The notes beneath the pieces were generated by a model. The model was not told the DNA's origin. It worked only from the letters and a program-made list of their open reading frames with translations, and did not search any database. The position numbers were made by a program, and so were the translations under genes. From Ulva prolifera (Eukaryota; Chlorophyta; Ulvophyceae; Ulvales; Ulvaceae): DNA of 64,000 bases. Of this stretch, positions 14,129-53,943 are shown in pieces (position 1 is the stretch's first letter; the number at the start of each line of letters is the position of its first letter). Where the stretch lies: assembly GCA_023078555.1 (NCBI GenBank), contig CM041196.1, positions 9,132,985-9,196,984 of the forward strand, in the 5' to 3' direction.

Positions 14129-17100
14129 GCGGGGGCGGCGGCGCGTCCGCCGCCACGGCGTCCACACTGTGGCCGATGCTGCGCGCCCGGCGCCGCTCCC
14201 CAGCACGTGCGGCGCCGCAGGCGGCCGCCGGCAGGCGGCTGGAGCCGCCGTGCTGCCCGGCCCCACGCGGGGACATGCTGGCGATGTCACAGGCCGTGCG
14301 GAAGAGGTCAAACTCGGCACCGGAGGACACAGACGAAGACACCGGCGAGTCTGGCAGCATGGCCGGGAGGGCGACGCGGGAGAAGAGGGCAGTGGAGTTG
14401 ATGGTGCCCGGGGTGGCAGACATCAGCATGCGGGTCGAGACAGCCTGGTAGGCCTGGTAGGCCACAGGGTCGGCGTCCATGAGGCGGGAGGTGACGTTGG
14501 CGCCCAGCACGGAGCTGTCCTACACAGCACGCGATCCCCTGTGGCTACCAGTGCGGAGTACGCGCTCGCTACCGGCAGCGTGTAAAGTAAAGTAAAATCT
14601 GAATGTACTGAGCCGAATCCTATTGGACATTGACAACTCCGAGTGAACGGGACCATGTGAGTGCTCTGAGGCAGCTCCACACTGCGGTGCATGCATGCGT
14701 GTCCACGCGCGGCATTGCCGACAATGAGTTTGCAGCGCAGCGGCCCCGGCACGGCATGGACACCACATCAGCATTGCATCGCTCAGCTCGCAGCACAGGG
14801 CCAGCTACACCTCCAGGTCCGGCTCCTACGCTACACCTCCAGGCCGGGCTCGGCAGCCCGAGCATGGTGATGGGTGTGGCCACTGAGTCGTGCAGCGGTC
14901 ACATGGCCTGATTGCCAGAGACAGCCAGACAGTCAACAGTGAGGTTGCCACACACTGGCGCACAGGGGGCAGGTGCCTCTGCAGGGCCTACAGGGTAGCA
15001 GGTGGGGTGGGGTGGGAAGAGAGTTCCGCGCACCTGTACGAGGCCATCAGAGTCGATGTACCGGCCGCGGCTCAGCTCCCGCTGCATATCCTGCAGAAGC
15101 GTGCGCACTTGCGAAAAGGTCGGCCGCTCCGCCGCGTCCGCCGACAGGCACGCCTTCATCGTCAGGGTGTACGTCAGCGGCGCCGCGCGCGACAGCGACG
15201 GGAAGTCAGGGTTCCACCGGAACTCCGTGCGGCTGCGGCGGCGGCGGTGGGAGGCGGTCGCGGCCGCGGCGGTGTCTGAGGCGGCGTCCCGGCACAGCGC
15301 GCACCCGTTCGGCCGCTCGCACCGGCACGTAGTGTCCCTGCACGGCCCATGCATTCGCCCCCGCGCACATGCATGCGTGCTCCGTGCGAGCCGCAGCCGG
15401 GAAGAACATGCAGAGCGTAGGACGAAGCCTGTCAGCAACCATCGTGCGACAGAGCCCAAACAGACATCGCCACGGCCTTGCCATGCTGAGCCGTTGCCGG
15501 AGCAGGCGCGAACACACACACGACAACAGCAGGCGCACTCCCACAAATCAGGGTGCGCCACAGCTGTCCCGTATGTTCAGATCTGCCTCGAGAAGCTGTT
15601 AAATGTGTGCTGAGGGTGTGGAACTGTGTAGGTGCATCGCTGCTTGCGGTTGCATGTCTGGTGCTGTTCGCAGTCGGTGCTCTGCCGACGTCTGGCCTGG
15701 GTCATTATTCGTATTGCTGTCCCAGATGGCTGAATGGAATCGCAGCTGGCCTCTCGCAGCCTCGGTTCAGGAACGCACTTGATGATGTAGACGGACTTGC
15801 CGGCCATGAGCTCCCACATGATGACGCCGAAGGAGTAGACGTCGCTCGCGCGGTGCAGCCGGTGCTCCCGCACCACCTCCGGCGCGACGAAGAACGGCGT
15901 GCCCTGCCGCACGTTGGACATGTGGCTGCGGCCAGCCTGCATGCGCGCCGCCATGCCGAAGTCCGCGATCTTGGCCGTCACGCGGCCCCGCCGCAGCGCC
16001 GTCTCCGCCGTCGGCGCGTCCGCCACGTCAAACTGCACGTGCGGCGGGCCCTGTCAGCGGGCTGCTGTGGCTCAGCATGTGGTCGTCGGGCCACCGTTCC
16101 CGTCCTTCGCACTCGCGGACACGGAAGGGTCTGGCGCAAAGATCGCAGGGGCGACGGTGTCAGCTTGGAACGGCGGGGCGCACCTTGAGGAGGACATTGG
16201 AGGGGTTGAGGTCGCCGTGGCAGATGCGCTTCGCATGCATGTAGGCCATGCCGGCGGCGATGTCCTGCATCACGCGCACGAGGTGCTCCCAGCGCTGCCC
16301 CAGGAAGCCCGGCGCAAACACACCCTTCGCGATCAGCGCCCGCAGCGTACCGCCATTGCAGAATTCCTGCATGAATGCGCGCCATGCGTGTTTTGTGCGC
16401 ATTGCAGCGGACCCAAGGGGCGCGAGATGTCTGCACGGTGTCTGTGCGGAGCAGCGGCCACACATCTCATCGGCAGGTACGGTCCCAGCAGCACGGCCCT
16501 CGTTATAGCCGCAGTCGCCCCTGACCAGCGCAGCATGACCCAGTGCAGCACAGCATTGCGGCATGGCACAGGACACAGCCCGCCAAAGCACAGCAGGGCA
16601 CGGCATGGCGCAGCGTAGCACACGGCCCGCTAAAGCACAGCAGGGCCGACCTGCACGAGGTAGAACTTGAAGACGGCGAGCTCGTTGGAGGCCCCGGAGT
16701 TGTCCACGGAGCGGATGTCGTGGCTGTAGGTGGCAACGACGTTGCTGTGGCTGAGGTTGCTCGCGATCGCTGCCTCGCTCGCGATCGACGCCGTCTGCTG
16801 CTGCTCGGGCTCGCTCTGGAAGAGGATCGTCTTGATGGCCACCGGCAGGCCTCGCCACAGGCCTGCATGCATGGCGCTGCACCTCAGCCCTTGTGCCCCC
16901 GACTCACCACAGGCCGGCTGCCGCGGCACCCATGCCGACATTGTCTGGAGGACTGCAGACGTGCAGCATGGAACGGCATCCAGCATCGGAAGGAGTTCAG
17001 GGCCTCGCAGGCAGGGAACGAGGGGAGCGAGAGGATCCACGCAATTCCACTCATTCATCACACTGCAAACACCATCTCCAGGCAGGCCAGGGAGGGGGGG

Positions 17101-17970
17101 GGGGGGGGGGGCGCGCCATGGTAGACGATGCCGTAGCCGCCACGGCCGAGCACCGAGAATATCTGGAGCTCGTCCTCCTGCAGGTCCTTGCGCAGCTGCC
17201 CCTGCAGGGACACGACGGCGGACGCGACGCTCTCACGTACGCTCGCCACTGTCAGCTCCGCGGCCGACGCGTACCCGTCCTCCGTGGACGCGCGCGAGCC
17301 GCGGCCGCCGCCGAGGCTGCCGCTGCGCGTCACCGAGCCTCCGCTCACCGCGTCCGTGTCGCTGCCCGCGGGGCGGGACGCGGCAGTGCGTGGGGGCCGC
17401 GGCCGGCCGGACGAGCGGCGGTCGCTGTCCGCCGGGGGGAACACGCGCACGCGGCGGATCGGGTTGGACGACGTCGCGGACGTGTGCATGAGCGTCGAGT
17501 CGCTGGTGCCGCACTCGATCAGGTCGAGGATTGGGTGGCTACGGGGCGCTCCGACGTAGCCGCGGTGCACGGCGGGCTGCGAGATTGTGCTGGAGACCCC
17601 AGACAGCGGCTCCTCGGATGACGGGGCGGCCTGGCGGCTCCGCTGCGGCACGAGGAATGCCGCCGTGGCGGGCTGCGGTGTCCCCCGCGGCGAGACAAAG
17701 GGGGAGACGCGGGGAGAGACACGGGGCGAGCGGGCCTTGGGGGCGAGGCAGGCGCGTGCTGGGTGCTGCGTGCTGTGCGCCTGGCATATGTTGAGCAGGT
17801 GGCACAGCGTGAGGCATGCATGGAGGCAGGTGGTGCGGAAGAGGGCCGCGGCGGCAGCGAGGGCGGTGCAGAGGAGCGCGGCTATGGGTGCGGCCTCGGC
17901 TGGGGCTGCTGACGGCGGCGTGCCGGCGCGGAGGGGCGGTTCGGCTGCGGCTGGTGGCCGGGGCGCTGGG
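12536..17970 (-). CDS. RLK1: membrane receptor-like kinase, TKL type, catalytic residues intact (5' end unresolved)
   Basis: Eight minus-strand exons fit in phase: 17970-17117, 16862-16651, 16366-16184, 16032-15779, 15337-15034, 14519-13778 and 13536-12536, with at least one more expected upstream. The first listed exon holds a hydrophobic segment (AAPIAALLCTALAAAAALF), probably the membrane helix, a Ser-rich juxtamembrane part and the glycine loop GRGGYGIVYHG. Then come VAIK, the catalytic loop CHGDLNPSN (HGD in place of HRD), ADFG, GTPFFVAPEV and SDVYSFGVIMWEL. Helix I has AERPTF. The tail of about 580 residues has a long proline run and a basic end, RRNRLLRLFK. It should phosphorylate Ser/Thr (or Tyr) at a membrane. 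The ectodomain and signal peptide seen in RLK2 and RLK3 were not found upstream of 17970. The first donor is GC, not GT. The 13778/13536 junction is chosen by phase only. Confidence 0.78.
14582..14658 (-). mobile_element. 5'-truncated SINE-like fragment in an RLK1 intron
   Basis: It carries the tail (gtaaagtaaa in plus orientation) and the block attggacattgacaactcc shared with the complete copy at 22922-23181, then stops shortly after gggaccat. It lies in the RLK1 intron 15033-14520 and is in the same orientation as that gene. Confidence 0.6.
17094..17117 (-). other. Unusual GC splice donor followed by a C18 tract in RLK1
   Basis: On the coding strand the exon ends TACCATG and the intron begins gcgcg followed by 18 C. 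In RLK2 and RLK3 the intron at exactly this residue and phase begins gtatgc and gtgcgc. So the RLK1 donor looks like a gtgcgc site with its T changed to C. Either it is used as a GC-AG intron, or splicing here is weakened and a short proline-rich extension with an early stop would result. Confidence 0.55.
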
Positions 17971-30200: not shown

Positions 30201-33200
30201 GGGTATGGCTTGCAAGGGTCTCCCGCCTATATGATATACCTCTGGGCCTGCTTGCATGCATGCTGATCAGCATCATCAAATCAGGAGCATGTGCTGCCAC
30301 CGGTTCTCCGGTGCAATGAGATGTTTTGGGAGTGCATGTTGTGGCGTGAGCAGGTGCTACCTGGTGTCCACATGTGCACACTGTGCAGAAGTATGGCCAT
30401 CACCGCCAATGCACTGCGCTCATGCATTGAAAGTATGCACACTCCTTGCCAAAATACTCGGTGCCAGTCACTGAGTTCACCCCTGGATTATGGTAGCCCT
30501 GGCTCTTGTGGCAACACAATTTACAGCTGTGCTTGTCCTTGGAATGATTGAACACACTGTCTGCTTTCTGCTTTTTGCATGTTGGAGATTTGTGTTTGCA
30601 GTCATGATGCCTGGTGCCAGCTGTTGCCCTTGGGGAATGTGTGTGGTCATGCCTGCCCTGCCACAGAGCTGCGCCAGAGTGTCAATCCGGTGCCGCCGCG
30701 GTGGACAGCTGCCACACACTAGCTGAGCTTCATGAATGCTGAGGTGCCACTGGGTGTATGATTTTCAGGTCTCCAACTGCTGTGGCTGTTGTTTGAGCAT
30801 TGTTGGCTGCAAAGGCTGAGGTGCCACTGGGTGTATTATTTTCAGGTCTCCAACTGCTGTGGCTGTTGTTTGAGCATTGTTGGCTGCAAAGGCAGCATGT
30901 GTGCTGTCAAACCTGCTTCACTTGAGCCTCCGCCAGCCAGATGTACATGCTGACCATTGCAGCACCTCCTGCCTTGACAGGTAAGTACGCATGCATTCTT
31001 TTCTGTGTCACCAGGGGAAATGTGAGGTCCTGGAGAGTGCAGAGCAGCTGCATGCAGTGCAAAGCACCTGGGCATGTGACATGTGGTTACTGTATGTGGT
31101 TACCATATGTGGCATATGTGGTTACTGGAGCAGATTTGCATCCCTTCGCTATAAAATAGAAACGGTAAAGTAAACAAAATCGAAAACGTATGTCAACTTC
31201 GGTGCAAAATAACAACGTTATTTAGGTAAAGTGCCGTCTTGGCCGGCAGAGACTTTTGCCCCATTTGTCGTGTGCAGCGATCTGTGCAGTCTATGGTCTG
31301 ACACAATGCATCAAATATTTATTGACGTGTGTTGCAAATTCAATGTGCGACGGTACTGTGGCATGTGTTGGAACTGTTGTTCTCAGGGCATGGTGTTACA
31401 GGCCTTGCTACGCCCCGTGGCTACGGGTGCATCAGGTTTCCGATATGCATGGAATCCATGCCGCACGGCTAGGGGTTCAGCGCGGTGCGGATTTGCCCGG
31501 AGCCGTCCTGAAAACGTCAAGTCCCCACGTCCCAGCGTATCATACGTTGATTTCCTGCGTTAAATAACGCGTACTCAGCGTACTTTATCGAAAGAAACGC
31601 GTAGGAATGCAACTCTGTACTGGAGATGTCTGAAGAGGACATGCCTCATTACATCCAACGTCACATTACTTTGCATCATGCCCCACACAGCAAACCTGTC
31701 GTGCCCGTGTGTGGTAATGATCAGCAGCAATGATCAGAAGTGGCCGCACCCGTTCCACACACAGCTGCAGAGCACCGTTTTTGTCGGAGCATCATATCTG
31801 TGCACAGCTGCAGCATTCCTCTGCGCTCCACCATGCATCAGCAACATGCATCAGCAAAGCCACGAGTCACACCCTCTGCCCTCTGCAGGCGTGGCTGCCC
31901 CTCACACCCACGGCAGTCTGCACGGGGCCCCCCCGTGGCACCTGCCAGAGTCTCCCGGCGGCTCCCCTCACAACTGGCTGCGCCCGAGCAGGCGGGGGCT
32001 GAGGGATGCCGCGGGGCAGCCTGGCACCGCCGCGGCCGCACACTCTGCCCAGGTGCCCATGCCGTCCCCGGGCGGCAGCAGCGACGCGAGTGCAACATGG
32101 ATCATGCCCATCTTTGCAGTTCTGTGCGTGGGTGCGCCTCCCCCAATCCCCCCCCCCCCGCGTCCCAAACTGCATGGGTACCCCTGTGTGCGGTGGTGCC
32201 AAACAGTTCAAATACATGACGTAGTGCGCATGCTCACGCACAGCTACTCTACACCCGATCAGGTTGCTGTGCGGAGAAAGGGGGCGACTCACGTATGTAT
32301 ATCTGTCTGCGGAGGAAGCAATTTTCTTTCTGTGCTGGTTGTGCTGTTCACAAAAAGTCGGCACGTAGGAACTGCCACCAGCACACCGCCTCCTGCAGCT
32401 GCCGGCATGCCCAGTCACGATATCGTCACGTGATCACGATGCTCATGACAGCGTGCGGTTCGCCGCAGGCATCATCGTCCTATCCACGTGCCTGTGGTGC
32501 ATATGCTGCTGCCGCAACCATGCCGCACGGAGAGAGGTGCTGTCTCCGGGCAAGGCGCTTTGGCCGAGCCGCAGGCAGGCGCTCAGCTTCGTGTTTCACT
32601 CGATGTCAAACCAGTCCGCGCCGTCCGGGCCCCCCTCCACCCCCCGCTCCGGGCCCCCCTCTGGGCCTGTGCACTCCTGGGCCGCCGCCAGCCCCAGTGC
32701 TCTGCCGCGGCCATACGCGCTGCCGCCGATCATCTTCCGCTCGGTCGACCACATCCCGGCGCGCCTGTACGCGCACGCGAGCCCACCCGTGCCGGAGGAC
32801 TCGCAGCCGTGGCGGCTGCTGCAGCGGTCGCACCGCACCCTGACGCCGGGCGACGTGGAGCCGCCGCTGCGCCGCAGCCACAGCGCCGGCGCGGACCTGT
32901 CCTCCTGTGACACGCCGCCCCGGCCACGCGCCGCAGAGGCCGCGCCGGCGCGTTCGTTCAGCGCCGCACTCACCGCGGCGCCGCCGCCGGTGGAGCGATC
33001 GGCGGCACATGCCGGCAACGCCGCCGCAGCGGTGACGCCGCGGCTGCATGACCGTGAGAGGAGGGAGAGTCCGCCGCCGGGGGAGGCCACCCGGCAGCAT
33101 GACGTGGTGGCGGCGGAGCGGATCAACGAGGAGGTCCGCAAGATGGGGCGTACGCTGTCGCGCGAGAGCGGCGAGCAGTCACACTTCACGGTGCAGTCGA

Positions 33201-36200
33201 TGCTCGGCCGCGGCGCGTTTGGCACCGTGTATCGCGGTATGCCCTGCTCACAGCGCACTAGCCTGTGGGCATCAACGATGGCACCTACTTGCTCACCCAT
33301 CTGCCTCTCACGCCGATGTGTCGGATGGGAACAGGGGTAAAAACTGGTATCGGGGGGTTCCTTCCGCAGCTCAATTTCAAGCACAACCCAAGATTCTGAG
33401 GCACATCTGTACTGCGAGATGTGGATACCTGATCACCCGGGTGTCACTGTGGATGCATCCGCGTCAGTTGCCCGAGCATGTGCACAGGGTGGGTGAGCTG
33501 CAGGGGTGTGGCGCGGCCTGGCGGTGGCCATCAAGATTGTGTTGTTCCAGAGCGGCGCGGAGGACGCGCAGGTGGCGCAGGTGGCGTCAGAGGCGGCGAT
33601 CGCGAGCAACCTCAGCCACAGCAACGTCGTCGCCACCTACAGCCACGACATCCACTATGTTGATGACTCCTGCCCTAATGAGCTCGGCATCTTCAAGTTC
33701 TACCTCATCCAAGTGCGTGTGCTGCCTGTTTCTGGGGCGTCGCTGACGGTTTCTGGGGATCTGTTGGTAGAGGAAAAACACATTTCTGTCATTGACTAGC
33801 CGCAGACGAAAGCGGAGTTTTTCTTGAAGCTCGCCAATGGTCCTCGTGTGCGACTTGCATGTGGTGGCACTGATGGATGGCAGGGGCTCATTGCACACGG
33901 CCACGAGCCTGATGCTCACGCGCGTGGCTACAGGAGTTCTGCAACGGCGGCAGCCTCGCCGGGGTGCTCGCGGACGGCATCCTGAACCGCATGCCGATGG
34001 CGCAGCGCTGGGCCTGCATCACGCGGCTGCTCATCGACATCGCGAGTGGCATGGCGTACATGCATGCAAAGAGCATCTGCCATGGCGACCTCAGCCCCTC
34101 CAACATCCTCCTCAAGGTGCGTGTACCCCCCCCCCCCCCCCCCCTTGCGCCGAGAGCACCTGGGGCTGATCAGTCTACTTCAAAAGGCCTTGAGGGTGGG
34201 CACGTGTTTGTCAGGCATGATGTAGGTGCTGTCCTGCTGGCCATCGCTGCAGGCGTGTGGGCCGGGACAATCACATGCACTGCCGGATGTGACTGCCGCT
34301 AGCAGCTGCTACGGGCGGCTCTGGTCCATGCCACCCGCTGCTTGCTACTTGCTGCGTGCTGCGCGAGCGTCGCTGCATCCTTCTGTGCGTGAGTGGCTGG
34401 CCCAGCAGCGGCAACTGTGGCATGTGATCCTTCCTGGCCATTTCAATCGCCGCCGTCTATCCTCCTACACCGGCGCGCGACGCATGCAGTACAACGACTC
34501 GCCGCACCTGCTGACGCCATCTGACGCCGTCGCGGCACGCGCCGCGTCAGCCAAAGTCACCGACTTTGGCATGGCGCAGCGCATGCAGAGCGGCGTGAGC
34601 CACGCGAGCAACGTGAAGCACGGCACGCCGCTGTACGTCGCGCCCGAGGTGCACCGCGATGGCCGGCTGCACCGCAGCAGCGACGTCTACGCGTTCGGCG
34701 TCATCATGTGGGAGCTCATGACCGGCCGGCCGATCCACATGGACCAGCTGCAGTGCGCCCCGCACCTCCACCGTTCCAGCGTGGTCGCGCGCCTGCCCTG
34801 CGCCCCCCTCTTCCGCACCGGGCTGCGGTGGAGTCACTGCTGGCATTCCACACATTGCAGCATGTGTTGCGCACATCGGTGCCGGTTTGCATGCAAGCAC
34901 CGTTTGTGTGCTGTGCCTGCGTGTTCCAGCATTCATCTCAAGGTGAAGTACCCGACAGTGCGGTGTTCGTCCGCGGATCCAGGTGGCTTGGGGTGCCGCA
35001 GTCCCAGATCAGCTGCGCTGCGGCGGCGCCAGCGTTGCCGCAGCTGTCCGTGAGAACCCGCGCAGGGTTTCGGCCGGGCCCAGGCCTGCGAGCCGGGGCC
35101 GTGGCCATGCAGGTTGGACCTCTGTTGAGGCACAGCTGCACTGCGACGCACAGAGCACACTGTTTGCCCGCATGCATCTGCTTTGCGCTGTGCTTTCAAG
35201 TGCCGTTGCTTGACGCGAGGGGATGGGTGGCTACAGGCAGGGCACCGCGAGCAGCCACTGGCCGTTCACAGACGGCAGCGCGCCGGCCGCCGCGGCGCCA
35301 CACCCGCCGGCCCCGCCGTGGGCCCCCGCGACGGCCCGCTCCTTTCCCAACCTCCCGCCCAGCGTGCCGATGACATATACGCTGACGATGAAGGCGTGCC
35401 TGAGCGAGCGGCCGGAGGAACGGCCGCGCTTCAAGCAGGTCGCGACGCTGCTGTCCGACACCGCGGCGGAGGTGGCGAGCGGGGAGTATGTCAACTCTGA
35501 TGGAACCCCCACCGTGCGCCCCTGCTGCCTCGCAATGCCCCCGTTTCAAGGCTCCTGTTTCAGTGTTGTGTGAAAAAGCGTATGTAAGTAAAAATGTACT
35601 AATGCAGTGGCGGACAGGCGTGAGGTCAAGACCCATCCCCACATCACATCACATCACATCACGCAACAGGCTCATCATCTTCACTCAAATATCTTTAAAG
35701 CACCATGCTTTCATGCATCATGCACACAGCAATTCAGCCCAACGCACACATGGCTCACTCCAACACCCCCCATGCCCATGTGCATTGGCCGGCGGGATGT
35801 ACAGCGGGGCTGGGTGTGTTGCTAGAGCGCAAGGGGGGTGGGGGGTGCGCAATATCAGCCTCAGCCTCTGGGGGGATCACCCCTTGTGGATATGTGGTGG
35901 ATGTACGGCATCGGATCAGTCACACCATTCATATTCACTGGTGCCTATCAGGAGTGTGACCTGATAGGCACCAGATTCCATTACGCATCATCAGAGTCCA
36001 TCAGAGTCGAACTCAGAGTCCAAGGCAGTGAGATGTGTCGAAGCGATAGAATTAGGAGTGTTCTGGCTATGTTTGAAGCGTGTTGCCAATTGTCAAAGGT
36101 GGTTAGCATGGCAAGCGACCTGGCTGAGGGTATGCATGGCACTCATGTGATGACCCTGCAGGGGCATGACCCTGCAGGTGCTATGTCCATACCATGAGAG

Positions 36201-43574: not shown

Positions 43575-43729
43575 TAGCGCTTCCATAGCGCTGCATTGGG
43601 TCCGTGACGGCTTGACGACAGTTAGTGTCAAGACTATGCTTGTCTCACGTAAAGTTTATGATAAATACGACTGATCTTATTGTGGATTGGTCTGTGCCTC
43701 ATCTGCCTGGTCTCATCGACTGTTTCGCC

Positions 43730-44194
43730 ATGGCTTCTCCCGCCGTGACCGAGCTCGAGAAGCTCAAACCGCGATGGGATAATTGCAACGTCACTGTATA
43801 CGACGGAACTAATTTTAGAGAATTCCAGGACTCTTTAGAGCATGCATTCGTCATTCGTTCGGCGGACTGGCTCATACATGGGTCGGAGCCGGGAGATGCA
43901 CGGTTTCAGAAGATCGGTATTAGCATCATCCGCTCGTCTATTGCCACGAATCTGAAGCATCTTATTCCATCATCATGTCAGCAATGCCATTTGGCATTCA
44001 AGCATGTCGAGACGCATCACAAACAGTGGCTCGCCGCCAACTTCGGGAAAATTCGCAGGCAGCTCAACGAAATCGTTCAGAGCGTCGACGAATCGTCATC
44101 TGACTATCTCACTCGTGTTCAGAGCATTCACGAACAGTACCTTAGTGCTGGGGGCAAGCTGGAAGAAGTGGAGCTCAGAGCCGGTTCAGCGTAG
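43730..44194 (+). pseudogene. Truncated Ty1/copia gag
   Basis: The frame starts MASPAVTELEKLKPRWDN and gives 154 residues before a stop. It has the copia gag layout: YDGTNFREFQDSLEHAF near the start, a tryptophan-containing helical middle (HHKQWLAANFGKIRRQL), and the SSSDYLTRV...YLSAGGKLEEVEL segment that precedes the zinc knuckle in intact proteins. The knuckle, protease, integrase and reverse transcriptase are absent. The likeness ends near 44180, where a fold-back sequence begins, so the stop belongs to foreign DNA. An upstream in-frame ATG exists at 43625, but the later start fits the usual leader length. Confidence 0.75.
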
Positions 44195-45899: not shown

Positions 45900-48800
45900 A
45901 TGTCCCGTGCGTGCGATAGAATGACTGTCACCGCAGTGGCCGTGCTCTTGCTCGTCTTGGCCGCTGTTCAAACGACCGCACAGGAGTGTATACGAGCCAG
46001 AACCGCTGTTGACGTCCTGGACATCGTGAGGAAGACCAGTGGCCATGCTCTAATCTGTCTTGAAGGCCAAGAGGACAGGTATGCCGTTTGTGAAGCCAAC
46101 AACGTGCCCACCCAGCGCTTCGGCGTGGGGTGCACTGTATGCGCTGAGCGATGCCAAAAGTGCCGTGATTCGACATTCTGCTGGTTGTACGTAGATATTC
46201 AGTAAGCGCGAGTAACTTCTCCCCACCGCAGCGATATCTTGTTATGCTGGCGGGGCCTCAAACCACATGCACTCACGCTCATGTTAGGCAAAGAGTAGCA
46301 AATTGCTTCAAAGAGCGTATCTGCACATGCTGTGATGTGTCTTAGCCTGCATGAATCCCCATCGGCGGACAAGCGCGTGGCGAGGTGAGCTTTCGCCGAT
46401 CGCTGCAGGACAGAATTGACGCGATCGGCATCACACCGCCGTGAAGTACAGCGTATTACTTTCCTGAGCGTATGTGCTTGGCACTAGCCTCAGCACAAAG
46501 GCAGTCCCTGCGATGTTGCGTGAACACGTCGCTGTGTGTGTGTGTGTGAGTGGTTCAGCCGTGCAGAGTATCTTTCTGGACGTCCAGCCAGTTCATCATC
46601 CCGGACAACGGCAACGTAACAATACAATGCGGCAGGCGGTTTATCTACACATACAGTTCCGAGGGGCCGATGGTCCTGGGCCGCGGGTCGGTGGTCGGCT
46701 TTCAGAACTGCAACGTGCACACCTACAAGGACGACGAGGCAGCCGTGGAGGCTGGCGATGAACCATACCCGCTCCTCTCAGTATTCGGCAATGTCGAGGG
46801 ATCGGTCGCGCAAGTCTCGCAGTCCACCGTCTTCTTCCCCAGGGAGGTACGACTGAACTACACACCTCTCCTACATTCCTCCCCACGCCTGGCAACCTAA
46901 CCCAGACATCACAATCCACAGTTCACCAGCGAACGATGTGCCATGACTCACATCTCGATCACTCCACTGCATGCTTGTTGATTCCCACTGCCACCATGCA
47001 GCAGTGCTAGCATCGCAACGCTGACCCTCCTGCAGTTCATGCAAGCCCTGGACCCAGCTGTGCTGCAAGAGCAGGTCGGAAACACAACCAGCGTCACTCT
47101 CCAGCTCGGGCCGCCATCAGACGAGGGCGCAGCCACAGCAGTCACCTTCCAGCGGGCCAACCTCCGCCCGGGCCCGAGGGCCGTCGCCAACATCCGGTTT
47201 GCCTTCACCGACGTCACCGCGTGGCACGCCGACTCGTTCGTGACTGCAAACGACGCAATCCAGGAAGCCCGCGTGCTGCTCGTGACGCACCAGCTCGCCA
47301 TCGACTGGTGCTGCGCCAAGCCGGTACCGCTGCGGGTGCCCCCCGCGTCCCAGAGCGGAGGATCATCCGCCAACGGGGCCCGCACCGCCGGCATCGCAGC
47401 CGCGGCAGTCGCCGGCATCGGTGTGCCCCCCCCCCCCCCCCCCCCCCCCCTCCCTCCCCCTGGCTCTACCGTTCTACCACCTGAGCAGGCGCAGCCGGGC
47501 ATTTGATCGGCAGACGTCCCAGCTGTGCAGTACCGGGCGTACCTTGTGCACACCACCCCCGCGCCACATCTTGTGGCCGAGTCCCCTGTGCCCGCCACTG
47601 TGGCAGTGTTCCATCACCAACCTGCGTGGCGTGGCATGCATGCTGGTCATGCATCACAGGGATCTGCGTGGCGGCAGCATCGCGCGGGGCCCCGATGCGC
47701 TGCGGAACACGGCCTTGGAGCGGTGTCTGCGACTGGCAGGCCTGCAGGGCGTGCTTGCCGTGCGACTGGGGTCTGTGTCATCAGTACTCGTAGGTACGCA
47801 GGACAGCATGCAGTCCCTGGGCAGTCCTCGCCGCTGCACCAGATGCCGCAGCGCGAGGTGAACTCGCCCCCGCTTTCTCAGCCGCACCTGACCCGCCGCC
47901 TGCGCTACAGTGCTCCTCGCCGCCGCCATCTGCTGCGGCGCCCGCCGCCGCTGCGCCAACCCTGACCTGCGCAAGCGCGGCCCACTCTCCGACTTCAAGC
48001 CGCACACACTCAACGGCGGCCGCGGCTGGCCCGACGCCGGCGCCGCCGTCGCGCGCGAACGCGCCTCCAGCATCGTCGGCCCGTCCCCCTCAGCCACCCT
48101 CGTGAAGGCCTCCGAGTCCCTGTCGTTCACCGCCGCGGACGGCGTGTCCGCGGCTGCGGCCGCAGTCGACCCGGCCGGTGCCGCCGGCTCAATGGCGCTG
48201 CTCAGCAGCTTGTCACACCCCGGCCCCCCCTCCAGCGACGTCGCAGCGTCGGCAGACCTCGGCGGTGGTCGCCCGCCGTGGCCGGCATCGGCGGACCTCG
48301 GCGCGCACAGCATGGCCAGCACGCTCGCAGCGTCCGCCGCGCCGCGGAGCGTGCCGGGGTCGGCGGGGGGGCTCACGGGGGTCGCGTCGGTGGACGCGGC
48401 GAGCAGCAGCATTGCGAGCCTGGGGGTGCCGGCGTCGGCTGAGCACCGGCCGGGCGCGGCGAATGGGGGCTCCTTCGGATCCGATGAGCTCAAGATCTTT
48501 GATGTGCTGTACCGCAGCAGGGACTCTGCGGTGTATCAGGGTGCGCGCTGGCCTCCCCCGGCTCGACTGTGTTGATACGGTGTTCCGGAAGGTGAGCAGT
48601 TATGCATGCTGTTGCATTGCAATGCGTAGCGATGTGCGGGGCCGCAGGAGAGTGCGCCGGATGCTCCATGCTGTCACCACGCGTCGCTTGATGGCTGCCC
48701 TTTCCGCGTCCGAGGCAGAGCGTCTGTTGTGCAAGGACAACGGCACAGAGGCACACGGCACCGCCGGGACCGCTCACCAGTCACCGCATGACCATGCAGC

Positions 48801-51800
48801 GGCCACACTTCTGAGCGCTCCTGGGGGGGCATCGCTGCATTCACTCCGTGCCCAACTCCCGTGTGGATATCTGCTGCAGGCCTGTGGCGCGGCACGTCGG
48901 TGGCCGTGAGCGTCGTCAGCATGCGCCTCGGGCCGCGCAGCTGCCAGCGGGTCCTCGGCACCGAGCGCATCGTCGCTGTGAACCTCGACCACCCGAACGT
49001 CGTGACGACGTATGTCTACGACTCGGTGGAGCCGGCGGACGTCGGCGGCGGCGGCGGCGGAGGCGGCGGCGGCGGCCGCAGCTCGACGCGCGCCTACGCA
49101 GTACAAGAGCTCTGCAACGGCGGCAGCCTGCGCAACGCGCTGCTGCGCGGCGTGCTCGCGCCCGGCACGCTGCGGCCGCGCTGGCCGAGCGTTCTGCGCA
49201 TCCTGTGCGGCGTCGCGGCGGGGATGGACTACATGCATGCGCTGCGCGTCTTCCACGGCGCGCTGATGCCCGCCAACGTGCTGTTCAAGGTACTCTGCTT
49301 TACTGGCAGCGACCCACATACATGTGCCCCATGCATTCAGAGGCCGGCAGAAGACCCAGCACGTGTGTGCCCGGTCTTTTCAGCATTACACGTTGCTCTC
49401 GTTGTCACCAGTAGACACACCCGGCTGTTGTGACACACATGCATCGACACCGTGCGGGTGCGGATCAAGCAACACACCAGAGGACTCACGCATCATCCCC
49501 CACCCCTTGCAGTTCCCGGAGGGCCAGTCGCGCTCGATCTTTGCGGCGCTGGAGTCCAGCACGGCCGTGGCCAAGGTGTCAGGGTACACCGCCGCGCTGC
49601 GCAAGCACCGCCTCGCCGGCGACGGCGACGCCTCCGCCGCCTTCTACACCGCCCCCGAGGCCCCCCAGTGGCCGCGCCTCTCCTCCGCCGCTGACGTCTT
49701 TGCCTTCGGCGTCATCATGTGGGAGCTCATGCAGGGCTGCCTCGCGTACTCCCAGCCGTGCGCTGCGCCTCCGCCTGCTGCGTGCTGTGTGCTGTGTGTT
49801 GCGTGGTGAGCCTGTCTGCCTGCATGCGCATGGGCGCGCTGCCGTGTACAGCCGGCTGGATGAACGCGACTGCCAGCGCCGCGAGGGTGGCGGACGATCC
49901 ACCGAACTTGACTTGCAATAGTGTCTCGGGTGGTGGCGTCAGGTGTCAGGTGCAGTGCTAGCAAAAGTGTCCTCAGGCGGCGGCATGTGCAGGCGCGCCC
50001 CGCAACCGGGCGTGAACCATGCGTACGCGGCGGTGCAGGGCCGCGGCGCAATGGCCGGAGGCGAACCACCCCCCGGCCTCGGCGGGCTGCCCGGCTTCGA
50101 CACCTCCGATAGCGACCTCAGCCACCACCCTGAATACCCATCCCTGCCGGCGGCGGTGCCCCTCACATACACGCTCGTCATGCGTGCGTGCCTGAGCCAG
50201 GACCCGGCGGAGCGCCCGGCGTTTGGGCACCTCGTGTCTATGCTGGAGGACCTCAAGACCGAGGTCGAATCGGGCTCGTACGTCGACTCGACTGGCGGCA
50301 TGCAGGTGGGTTGCCTGCGCCACAGACCCCGCCCCCTGAGGTGTTTCGATCACTGTTGCGTATATCCTGTCGCATCGATTCTTGCATTTAGATTCCTCAG
50401 GGTTGTCACTGCATGGTTGCACTGATGTGTAGTAGCTTGGTGCTGGATGCCGCTGTTGTGCGGACTACTCGCGCCTGCTAGCGAGTATGGTAGCAGTACA
50501 CCCGGATTCTCTGTGAAGCAATACCACATTCCAGGTGATCCATCCTGGATCTGGATATCGTGCACTGGCGCGGCGTACTGACGAGCTGGAAGTGTGCAGC
50601 CAAGCAGCATGATCGAGCGGACGCACCAGTCGCGCAGCGTGCAGACGACGCGCACGATGCTGCAGCAGGTCGCAGCCGCCTCGCACGGCCTAGCGCTGCC
50701 GCCGCCAAACCTCTCCGCCTCACCCTCCCTCTCCGTTGACGTTGCCATACCAGAGGAGGGAGAGGGCGATGCCTCGGAGTCCACCTCCTCAGGGTCTGTG
50801 TCTGCCTCCGTCTCGGTCCCCGGGCCGCCGTCGACGGGGACAACATCCACGCGCACGCCGCGCGAGGCCGACGTCGCAGCCACTGCGGCCGCGGCCGCAG
50901 CCGCGGCCGCTGCGGCTTCGCCGCCGCAGCACCGCCCGACATCGGTGGACATCGGCCCGCTCGGGTTTGCGTCTGTGGACGAGTTTGAGCAGCAGCGCGC
51001 GACGCGGCCGAGCACCGCGGCGGCGGCCTCCCCGGCTGACCGCGGCGGCTGGCGTACCCGCAGCGGGGGCACGCCGCTACCGCCGCCGGCCGACGTGCGG
51101 CTGGCGTCTGCGATCGGCTCGGCCATGCATGCGCGCGAGCAGGTCCACACCGGGCAGCTGGCGCGCGGCAGCCTCACCCGCGACGCTGCGGGCGACATCA
51201 TCCTGCAGCCGCCGCTCGGGTCCAGCCGCGTCATTGACTCCGGCTCGTCCGACGCGCCGAGTGAGCTGATGCAGGATGTGCGCTCCCGCACCGCCCACGC
51301 CGTCGCGCGCGCCGCCAGCAGTGCCGCTCTCAGCAGCATCGGCGGCACCTCCTCCGACGCGGCCGCGTCCGTCACCGACAGCGCCCTGGCCTCTGCCGAG
51401 CCCCGGTCCTCGCGCAGCCCGGGAGACCCCTGGGCGCGCGGCTCCGACGCGACCGGACCCTCCACCACCCCCCCCCTCTCCCCTGCTGGCCCTCAGGCAT
51501 CGTCCCCCGGCTCGGCACCGCTTCCGACGGACGCCTCTGCAGTCGTATCGCCGGATTCATCGAGGCCGTACACAGACCCTACGCGGGTGATGCGTCTAGC
51601 CCATAGCCATGATCCGACCGAGGTGCTCCCAAGTGCGCTCGCCCTGGGAAGTCCAACGGTGCCGTCCCTGGCGTCGAGGAACCTGCTCCCGGCGTCGGAG
51701 ATTGACAGCGCGGCGGACCGCGAGCGCAGCGACACCGCGAGGACTCTCGGCGCGAGCCGCGAGCTCGAGGCCGAGTTCGCGGCGCTGACTACGGAGTTCC

Positions 51801-53943
51801 CGGTGAGCTTCGACACCGGTGTGCTGTCGCCGCGCGGCGAGCCGTCGGACACCGTCACGATGGCGGACGTGCTGAGCCCGCCGCTGTCTGGCGGTCCCTC
51901 ATCGACGGGCAGCGGCGGCATTGCGCAGTCCTCCCGCAGCCTCCGCGCATGGACCTCTGCAGTCCCTCTGTCGCCCACCGAAGCCCTGCCTCTCCGCAAC
52001 CTGAAACACCTCTCGCGGTCGCTGTCACAGTCCCTGGAGTTAGAGCTGCCGAGGCTATCCGGCGCTCCCGCACGCGCAGGGTTCGTGTCGCCGGATGCGC
52101 CGCGGATACCCCCCCCGGACAGCCCCGCCAGGCAGCCACCACCCGTCTGCGACGCCTACGCCACGCCGGTGCCCCCGACTGTGATGCCGCCAGGGGTCGC
52201 GCAGCCGGCGTCGCCGCCACGGGCAGAGGCCGCGTTGCCAATGTCACCGCAGCCACCTTCCCCGGCGCATGTGCCGTGGCAGCCCCCGCCAGCGCCAGAC
52301 CTGCAGCCGCTGCCCCTGCAGCGCACGTCGCCTGTTCCCCAGGCGGCGCCGGCGGCCCTGCCGGCACCGCTCAACTCATGGAGTCGCGAAGCCTTCAACT
52401 TTGTCCGGCCACCCCTTATCCGGCAGCCCGCTAGCGGCCGCCCCGTCTCCACCGTCTCACCGACCCAGCGCTCCCCCGGGGCGCACCCTGCCTTCCCAGT
52501 GTCCCCCGCGTACCACAGCGCCACTGCGATTGCTTCGCTCGCGCCGTTCGGCCAGCCGCCGTCGCCGCCGTCCCCCGGCCACCCCCTTCCTCAGCCGAAC
52601 CATCACGCCCGCAGCCCGCCGCGGCGCCGCGCCGATTCGCGCTCTCCCAGCGCATCCCCGCGAAACTATACCTCCTCTCACTCTACAACGACGTCCCCCC
52701 GGTGCGGCCAGCCGCCTGCCTCCCACACTCCCTCCCCACGCTCCCCGCACCTCCGCGGCGCCACCTCCTCGACATTTACCCGCGCCTCCAACCCCACCAG
52801 CTTGTCCCCCTCTCTCGCGCCTTCCGGAGACACCGGCAACGCAGAACTCTCCGACCCCTCCCAAGGCGGGTGGTCCTCTCGCCTTGACTTCACCCCCCTG
52901 TCACTCCTCGATGCCGGGGATCCCGCAGCGCTCGTCGCTGTGTCCGACCCGGAGTTCATGCCTCCCCCCGTTTCTACTGCCGCAGCCCTACTCCCCCCGT
53001 CGCAGGTGCCTGGCCCCTCTAGCCACCCTGACGCCCCGACACCCCCCGGTGGCCGTGCCGCTCCGAGGTCCCTCGGCAACCCGCCACCGCCGCTGCTGCA
53101 GGACACCCTGAGGCAGCCGCGCTCCACTGGAACCTCGCCACGTGGCTATCGGAAGCCGAACCGCCACAAGTGGTCGTGCGTGAGCCCTGCCACCGCCCCT
53201 GCAAACTCTGACAGCCTCCCGCTGCTGCCGAGTGCGCCTCAGCCCGCCCCTCCCGGAACCTCTCCCCGACTCTCCCCCAGTCTGTGCGCCTCACCCATTG
53301 CCCCTACTCTTCCATCACAGCAGAGCACTGCTCATGGCATGAAGTAGTAACATGCATGCATGAAGGCCATGCATCCGTGCAGCGTACAGCGTCTCAAGCA
53401 TGCCCATGCACGCACGTCGTTGGTGTGCGCAGCAGTGCAATGCGTTGCAAGCATGGCCCTCATGCATATTGTTACACTTGTCGAGGGCGTTGAGGTGTCG
53501 TGGGCCATTTCCGGCAGAGCGCTCATGCATGTGCTTGAGATTGAGTGTGAAGTGGGTGTGGGGCGGTGCACCTTGTTTCTTGCATGGCGCTGTGGACGCC
53601 TCGAGAACGCCCGTGTGAGGAAACAGGCGTAACAGCTGCGTATGTACCTACAGGCGGCGGAAGACGGCCGTTACCCCGGATGCCGCTACCATCCACACCG
53701 GGGCGTGAAGCCACACCCACTGGGCGCGGCTCAGTGCCGAGTAGCTTCAGCAGAGGCTCAATCGCGGCGGTCGGGGCCGGGATGACGGTGGAGGCAGGGG
53801 GCCTGGCGCCGGTGCCGGAGGTTGCCGTGCACGCCGCCTCTGATGGCCAGGCCGCCGTGGCCTCCGCGCCCTCCACCCCTGGCTCCGATGCGTCCCCCGT
53901 CCTCGTGCCCTACTCCCTCGGCAAGCGCAGCTTCATGTTCTAG
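45900..53943 (+). CDS. RLK3: receptor-like TKL pseudokinase with signal peptide and very long disordered tail
   Basis: Exons in phase: 45900-46078, 46588-46846, 47036-47420, 47911-48540, 48880-49289, 49513-49757, 49993-50305, 50600 to about 53240, and 53645-53943. A secretion signal (VTAVAVLLLVLAAVQTTAQ) is followed by a strand-rich ectodomain and a membrane helix (about 262-284) split by a phase-1 intron, ending CCGARRR. The kinase fold is clear: LDHPNVV, MDYMHA, TAPEAP, DVFAFGVIMWELM, AERPAF. Catalysis is not possible in the usual way. The glycine loop is YRSRDSAVY. VAIK is VAVS (Ser near 495). HGD is HGA (Ala near 612). DFG is GYT (near 646). The intron between the N-lobe and ELCNGG, present in RLK1 and RLK2, is absent, and a Gly run sits nearby. 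It may act as a scaffold or co-receptor. The start may be 45921. The last junction is unresolved: one exon could instead end at the stop at 53347. Confidence 0.82.
47426..47450 (+). repeat. C25 tract just downstream of an RLK3 splice donor
   Basis: The donor at 47421 reads gtgtg and runs straight into 25 C, in the intron that splits the membrane helix. Confidence 0.9.

Follow-up and report, generated by a model that had tools for sequence, protein, structure and literature searches.

RLK3, a putative receptor pseudokinase in a non-RD receptor-type kinase family of the green alga Ulva prolifera

We analyzed RLK3, a gene on the forward strand of a 64,000-nucleotide stretch of Ulva prolifera DNA (the window; contig C1, positions 9132985-9196984, with coordinates below counted from its first letter unless a contig is named), which also carries two active relatives, RLK1 and RLK2. 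Judged by its sequence, RLK3 is probably a single-pass receptor pseudokinase that has been kept by selection and that acts by protein contact instead of catalysis. The gene model is intact and has the anatomy of a receptor, the kinase domain has lost its catalytic motifs while selectively retaining residues of the fold, and this domain has been under purifying selection. Receptor pseudokinases are already a known kind of protein; what is new is RLK3 as a member of this kind in an HGD (non-RD) receptor-type family of a green alga.

Catalytic losses and retained residues

The genome (88.9 Mb in 44 contigs) was searched for relatives of RLK3, and exon profiles run on the fetched DNA yielded 36 clusters. 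One lone weak match in the window was dropped, leaving 35 aligned rows; since only the best candidates of the genome search were scored, family counts are lower bounds. Twenty-eight rows make up the active set, and for 22 of them the fetched DNA includes both the glycine-loop exon and the VAIK exon. A further three rows, outlying but with their motifs intact, were kept apart from these 28. Four of the 35 rows are degenerate at the catalytic motifs: RLK3, C2_4462123 (VAIS, HGQ, and DVG), C6_7952421 (HGS and GFL, with the beta3 Lys not clear), and C5_2431509 (VQ, NGD with the Asp kept, and NFG). In RLK3, the motifs read as follows.

48510..48540, + strand: glycine loop YRSRDSAVYQG, with the three Gly residues changed to Tyr, Ser, and Ser
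48900..48911, + strand: VAVS in place of VAIK (Lys in 22/22 active rows with that exon)
49254..49262, + strand: HGA in place of HGD (Asp in 28/28 active rows)
49582..49590, + strand: GYT in place of DFG (DFG in 28/28 active rows)
49633..49641, + strand: SAA in place of the P+1 motif GTP (G, T, and P each in 28/28 active rows)
49651..49659, + strand: APE, kept, read directly in RLK3

In the active rows that hold the glycine-loop exon, Gly occupies the three loop positions in 22/22, 22/22, and 21/22 cases. A first-pass annotation of the window had described VAVS, HGA, GYT, and the glycine loop YRSRDSAVY as the loss of all three catalytic signatures. Each of these was read directly at its motif, and to the three losses the P+1 motif has to be added. 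A pseudokinase is recognized by loss of at least one of the VAIK Lys, the HRD Asp, and the DFG Asp; RLK3 has lost all three. The RLK3 codons at the Lys, the HxD Asp, the DFG Asp, and the DFG Gly are each two bases away from the usual codon, so that single sequencing errors do not explain the changes.

The assignment of kinase residues to catalysis or to the spines is textbook knowledge, and a review agrees that the glycine loop, the Lys, both Asp residues, and the Asn are catalytic (PMC4718504). RLK3 retains the alphaC Glu, the catalytic-loop Asn, APE, the F-helix Asp, and the AERP Arg. The V/A/L residues of the catalytic spine and the His of the regulatory spine are kept, and the regulatory-spine Phe is replaced by Tyr. 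The kinase fold as a whole is still recognized (PF07714, E value of 9.7e-19, 68.1 bits against a cutoff of 23.1). We then compared losses across 75 invariants, defined as alignment columns for which conservation among the active rows reaches 95 percent or more. RLK3 keeps 1 of the 9 catalytic invariants versus 55 of the 66 other family invariants (Fisher p = 3.4e-5), with the P+1 columns placed among the noncatalytic ones, which weakens the contrast, and with columns taken as independent. The first-pass argument that the pattern of loss is unlike decay is thereby supported. The same test was significant for C6_7952421 (p = 0.012).

Gene model and selection on the kinase domain

The RLK3 model (45900-53347, + strand) consists of eight exons encoding an intact product of 1,729 amino acids.

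45900..46078, + strand: exon 1, containing the start codon and a hydrophobic stretch that resembles a signal peptide; open, with a GT donor and phase 2 out
46567..46846, + strand: exon 2, first half of the ectodomain
47036..47420, + strand: exon 3, second half of the ectodomain and beginning of the membrane segment
47911..48540, + strand: exon 4, remainder of the membrane segment, juxtamembrane region, and glycine loop
48880..49289, + strand: exon 5, beta3 through the catalytic loop in a single exon, for which RLK1 and RLK2 use two
49513..49757, + strand: exon 6, activation segment, APE, and F helix
49993..50305, + strand: exon 7, end of the kinase fold, with AERP
50600..53347, + strand: exon 8, Ser/Pro/Ala-rich tail of ~915 amino acids, then stop

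Every exon is open, each of the seven introns has GT-AG borders, and the intron phases (2, 0, 1, 1, 0, 2, 0) fit in frame, in agreement with the earlier claim of open exons with matching phases. The span first given to the gene, 45900..50305, has the right start (another possible ATG lies at 45921) and stops short at its end, since exon 8 follows. The exon 6 donor was set by likeness to RLK1 and RLK2, which have the same phase 2 intron; 49745 is an alternative of the same phase. On base composition alone, the probability that all eight exons would be open is ~10^-12, including a factor of 3e-6 from the last exon. The product begins with a signal-peptide-like segment, followed by an ectodomain, one hydrophobic membrane segment, the kinase fold, and the long Ser/Pro tail. 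The gene model thus contains the elements of a receptor, namely, a signal peptide, an ectodomain, and a single membrane segment, the first and the last as assigned by eye from the sequence. The membrane segment so assigned is AGIAAAAVAGIVLLAAAICC, which spans the intron between exons 3 and 4. The exon 8 tail (50600-53347) had no match in the fetched DNA of relatives.

The intron positions tie the kinase domain of RLK3 to those of its two active relatives in the window.

15043..17174, - strand: kinase exons of the RLK1-type active relative, with VAIK, HGD, and DFG
33179..35504, + strand: kinase exons of the RLK2-type active relative, with VAIK, HGD, and DFG

The RLK3 introns after LxK (phase 0) and between exons 6 and 7 (phase 2) occupy the same place and have the same phase in RLK1 and RLK2, and the intron after VYxG matches the position in RLK2. 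This intron has a GT donor in RLK2 and RLK3; at the corresponding end of its glycine-loop exon, RLK1 reads GC and may use a GC-AG intron or a different donor. RLK1 and RLK2 also have an intron that separates the VAIK exon from the HxD exon, and RLK3 lacks it. C6_7952421 and the outlying row C5_3544454 likewise read through at this site.

To assess selection, we used a codon model of our own with one ratio of nonsynonymous to synonymous change (omega) per branch, covering the kinase domain alone in 9 to 10 taxa (8 without C2_4462123). Neutral evolution (omega = 1) was rejected on the RLK3 branch in 5/5 variants, with twice the log-likelihood difference (2dlnL) ranging from 29.7 to 54.7: 36.3 with C2_4462123 as the sister, 51.4 and 54.7 without C2_4462123, 29.7 with the catalytic columns masked, and 36.8 with C6_7952421 added. 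Null simulations (n = 12) gave 2dlnL values of 0.07 to 3.55. Omega on the RLK3 branch did not differ from that of the background (p = 0.47). Neutrality was rejected as well on the branches of C2_4462123 (2dlnL, 43.9) and C6_7952421 (2dlnL, 62.7) and for the RLK3-C2_4462123 pair (2dlnL, 116.9); if the shared ancestor of this pair already lacked catalysis, the whole path between them postdates the loss. On the control branch, that of RLK1, omega was 0.30, higher than that of RLK3, and omega = 1 was again rejected (2dlnL, 7.4). The guanine-plus-cytosine content at third positions was 0.85 to 0.95 in the three RLK3 kinase-core exons versus 0.55 to 0.68 in RLK3 introns. Purifying selection on the kinase domain, together with the concentration of losses at catalytic sites, supports the noncatalytic role for which RLK3 was proposed to have been kept, and the same two results suggest a functional gene rather than a decaying one. 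Among the refuting conditions named in the first-pass annotation, the one on synonymous versus nonsynonymous change thus gave an outcome that favors a kept role.

Several points weigh against this interpretation. Loss specific to catalytic columns was not significant for C2_4462123 (p = 0.34) or C5_2431509 (p = 0.68). Synonymous sites are near saturation and some foreground branch lengths exceed 10, and for this reason the omega values obtained (0.08 to 0.12) are unreliable and only the rejection of omega = 1 was used. The codon model applies a single omega to all sites, and the RLK3 branch may span time that preceded the losses. Finally, the RLK3 protein branch is long (1.16 versus a median of 0.4), which fits faster change.

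Family, ectodomain, and descent

RLK3, C2_4462123, C6_7952421, and the 28 active rows form a clade (support, 98/99) with at least 31 members. The degenerate share of this clade, 3/31, is in line with the 10 to 20 percent quoted for pseudokinases in eukaryote kinomes (PMC7158045). The HRD motif reads HGD in 28/28 active rows, which makes this a non-RD family, and RLK3 itself lacks the Asp of that motif. Arg-to-Gly changes at HRD occur in 19 of ~50 human pseudokinases versus 8 of ~500 active kinases, where they are rare (PMC4718504). With regard to possible kinship with the plant RLK/Pelle kinases, a profile of the family (A1) matched 367 chains, and the best 60 comprised one EGFR row and then MLK, B-raf, CTR1, and ULK, with no plant receptor-like kinase; with RLK3 alone, Src-family kinases came first and the plant receptor-like kinase SOBIR1 came 27th among the best 60 of 419 chains. 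Clusters of related receptor-type kinases were seen at C2:4.29-4.64 Mb and C1:9.58-9.60 Mb. As suits a green alga, the genome also gave 38 matches to the chlorophyll a/b-binding family; one of these light-harvesting proteins matched LHCII-type chains from green plants and algae, with a multi-domain LHCI set (9vfj) in its top rows, whereas the RuBisCO large subunit had no match.

Searches of other collections were negative and are uninformative with respect to algae: part of RLK3 exon 6 gave 298 pattern matches in bacterial and archaeal contigs, a collection without algae, of which 0 were confirmed; profile A1 gave 19 pattern matches in viral contigs, with 0 confirmed; and exon 5 had no match among plasmids by distant blastn.

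The ectodomain recurs within the family, as far as loci with DNA fetched far enough upstream are concerned. The exon 2 profile was found over most of its length in 4 other family loci and matched partly at C1:9161162, ~5 kb upstream of the RLK2 kinase exons, and the exon 3 profile was found in 7 other family loci. No Pfam family covers the RLK3 ectodomain. For C2_4462123 and C6_7952421, there was no ectodomain match within the DNA fetched at those loci; upstream of both, a hydrophobic stretch precedes basic residues, as judged by eye. Weak ectodomain matches at C6:4691547-4691780 (E value of 7e-5) and C2:5368026-5368175 (E value of 0.002) have no kinase match listed near them and are possible receptor pieces without a kinase, judging from the matches.

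In a tree with the catalytic columns masked, RLK3 was paired with C2_4462123 (support, 93/91), with a bootstrap that was not fully settled. The C2_4462123 branch is also long (1.26 versus the median of 0.4), and since both members are long branched, their pairing could be due to long-branch attraction. By approximately unbiased tests (p-AU), a clade of RLK3 and RLK1 was rejected (p-AU = 0.006), as was one of RLK3, RLK1, and RLK2 (p-AU = 0.0096); RLK3 with RLK2 alone is compatible with the data (p-AU = 0.123). A single clade of RLK3, C2_4462123, and C6_7952421 was neither rejected nor established (p-AU = 0.459), and the value for RLK3 with C6_7952421 alone was 0.284. It is possible, and we raise this tentatively as a rather unlikely scenario, that RLK3, C2_4462123, and perhaps C6_7952421 represent one old receptor pseudokinase lineage within a green-algal receptor-kinase expansion. 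Its members would be dedicated noncatalytic coreceptors of the HGD members, in a system that arose apart from that of land plants.

Among other features of the window, an open reading frame at 43616-44194 (+ strand) looks retroelement gag-like by eye; a Pfam search with it returned no match.

Proposed mode of action and alternatives

We propose that the RLK3 ectodomain, of a type common to some active relatives, would meet a ligand or another receptor on the outside. The kinase domain is predicted to fold, yet by its sequence it should neither hold Mg-ATP nor transfer phosphate, because the beta3 Lys, the catalytic Asp, the DFG Asp, the glycine loop, and the P+1 motif are gone. RLK3 would then pair with active HGD members via their like ectodomains and kinase folds and act on its partner either allosterically, through positioning of the alphaC helix, or by competing for it. 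The narrower first-pass proposal of a partner of RLK1 or RLK2 drew no support from the tests of descent. Relatedness tells little about pairing, and all 28 active rows are candidate partners.

Receptors that work in comparable ways are known from animals and land plants. The animal receptor pseudokinases ERBB3, ROR, PTK7, and RYK are single-pass proteins with degenerate kinase domains that act through partners, as proposed here for RLK3; they belong to the animal tyrosine-kinase group and have other ectodomains, and their resemblance to RLK3 is probably by convergence. The plant receptor-like pseudokinases BIR2, CRN, GHR1, and ZmDRIK1 share with RLK3 a receptor layout and a kinase fold without catalytic residues (PMC10868138, PMC7158045). 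In ZmDRIK1, which did not bind nucleotide, Ala replaces the VAIK Lys and DFG reads DLE, and in BIR2 the pocket is occluded by the glycine loop (PMC10868138, PMC7158045). The alphaC Glu, however, is replaced in ZmDRIK1 and kept in RLK3. Moreover, these four are land-plant proteins, whereas the family of RLK3 has its own ectodomain type, HGD in its active rows, and MLK, B-raf, CTR1, and ULK among its best 60 of 367 chains. A model for how RLK3 might activate a partner without catalysis is offered by EFR, a non-RD receptor kinase, with BAK1: a kinase-dead EFR variant still raises BAK1 activity (PMC11259431). EFR differs in being an active kinase, whereas RLK3 is degenerate at the catalytic motifs.

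The strongest alternative is the competing arm of this contact model, namely, a decoy or dominant-negative role for RLK3, in which the function would reside in the ectodomain or the heterodimer and the kinase domain would persist only as a folded plug against active partners. We consider it a serious possibility, although of less than even probability. The occurrence of the RLK3 ectodomain type at other family loci fits it, as does the loss of the substrate-side P+1 motif along with the ATP-side residues, and BIR2, which competes for BAK1, provides a plant precedent (PMC10868138). A decoy role alone leaves unexplained why a Ser/Pro tail has stayed open over ~915 codons, and sequence cannot distinguish it from allosteric activation.

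That RLK3 is instead a recent pseudogene, which lost catalysis lately and whose frame is still unbroken, appears improbable. Its long protein branch would suit this explanation. In addition, when 268 codons were simulated under neutrality, the probability of no stop was 0.53, 0.25, 0.07, and 0.03 at 5, 10, 20, and 30 percent replacement, and an open kinase frame alone is therefore insufficient to exclude it. However, neutral decay would strike invariants alike, and what RLK3 has lost is 8 of 9 catalytic invariants versus 11 of 66 others; the branch test likewise argues against it by rejecting omega = 1. More improbable still is that RLK3 remains an active kinase with an unusual mechanism: the alphaC Glu and the catalytic-loop Asn are kept and unusual active kinases such as WNK and CASK (PMC4718504) and ILK1 (PMC9403797) are known, but RLK3 lacks the glycine loop, the beta3 Lys, the HxD Asp, the DFG Asp and Gly, and the P+1 motif, and the best predictors of activity that have been described are an intact glycine loop and VAIK (PMC4718504).

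Among listed papers on algal receptor kinases and pseudokinases, judged by titles and the beginnings of abstracts, no algal receptor pseudokinase was reported, which is weak evidence. Among the available rows of a review table, chlorophytes such as Chlamydomonas and Ulva have 1 to 4 receptor-like kinases (PMC10868138), whereas the single kinase family found here has at least 31 closely related members, some of which share an ectodomain type, leaving aside whether the definitions are equivalent. If RLK3 signals, green algae may have evolved noncatalytic receptor signaling in a different branch of kinases, where it could be studied.

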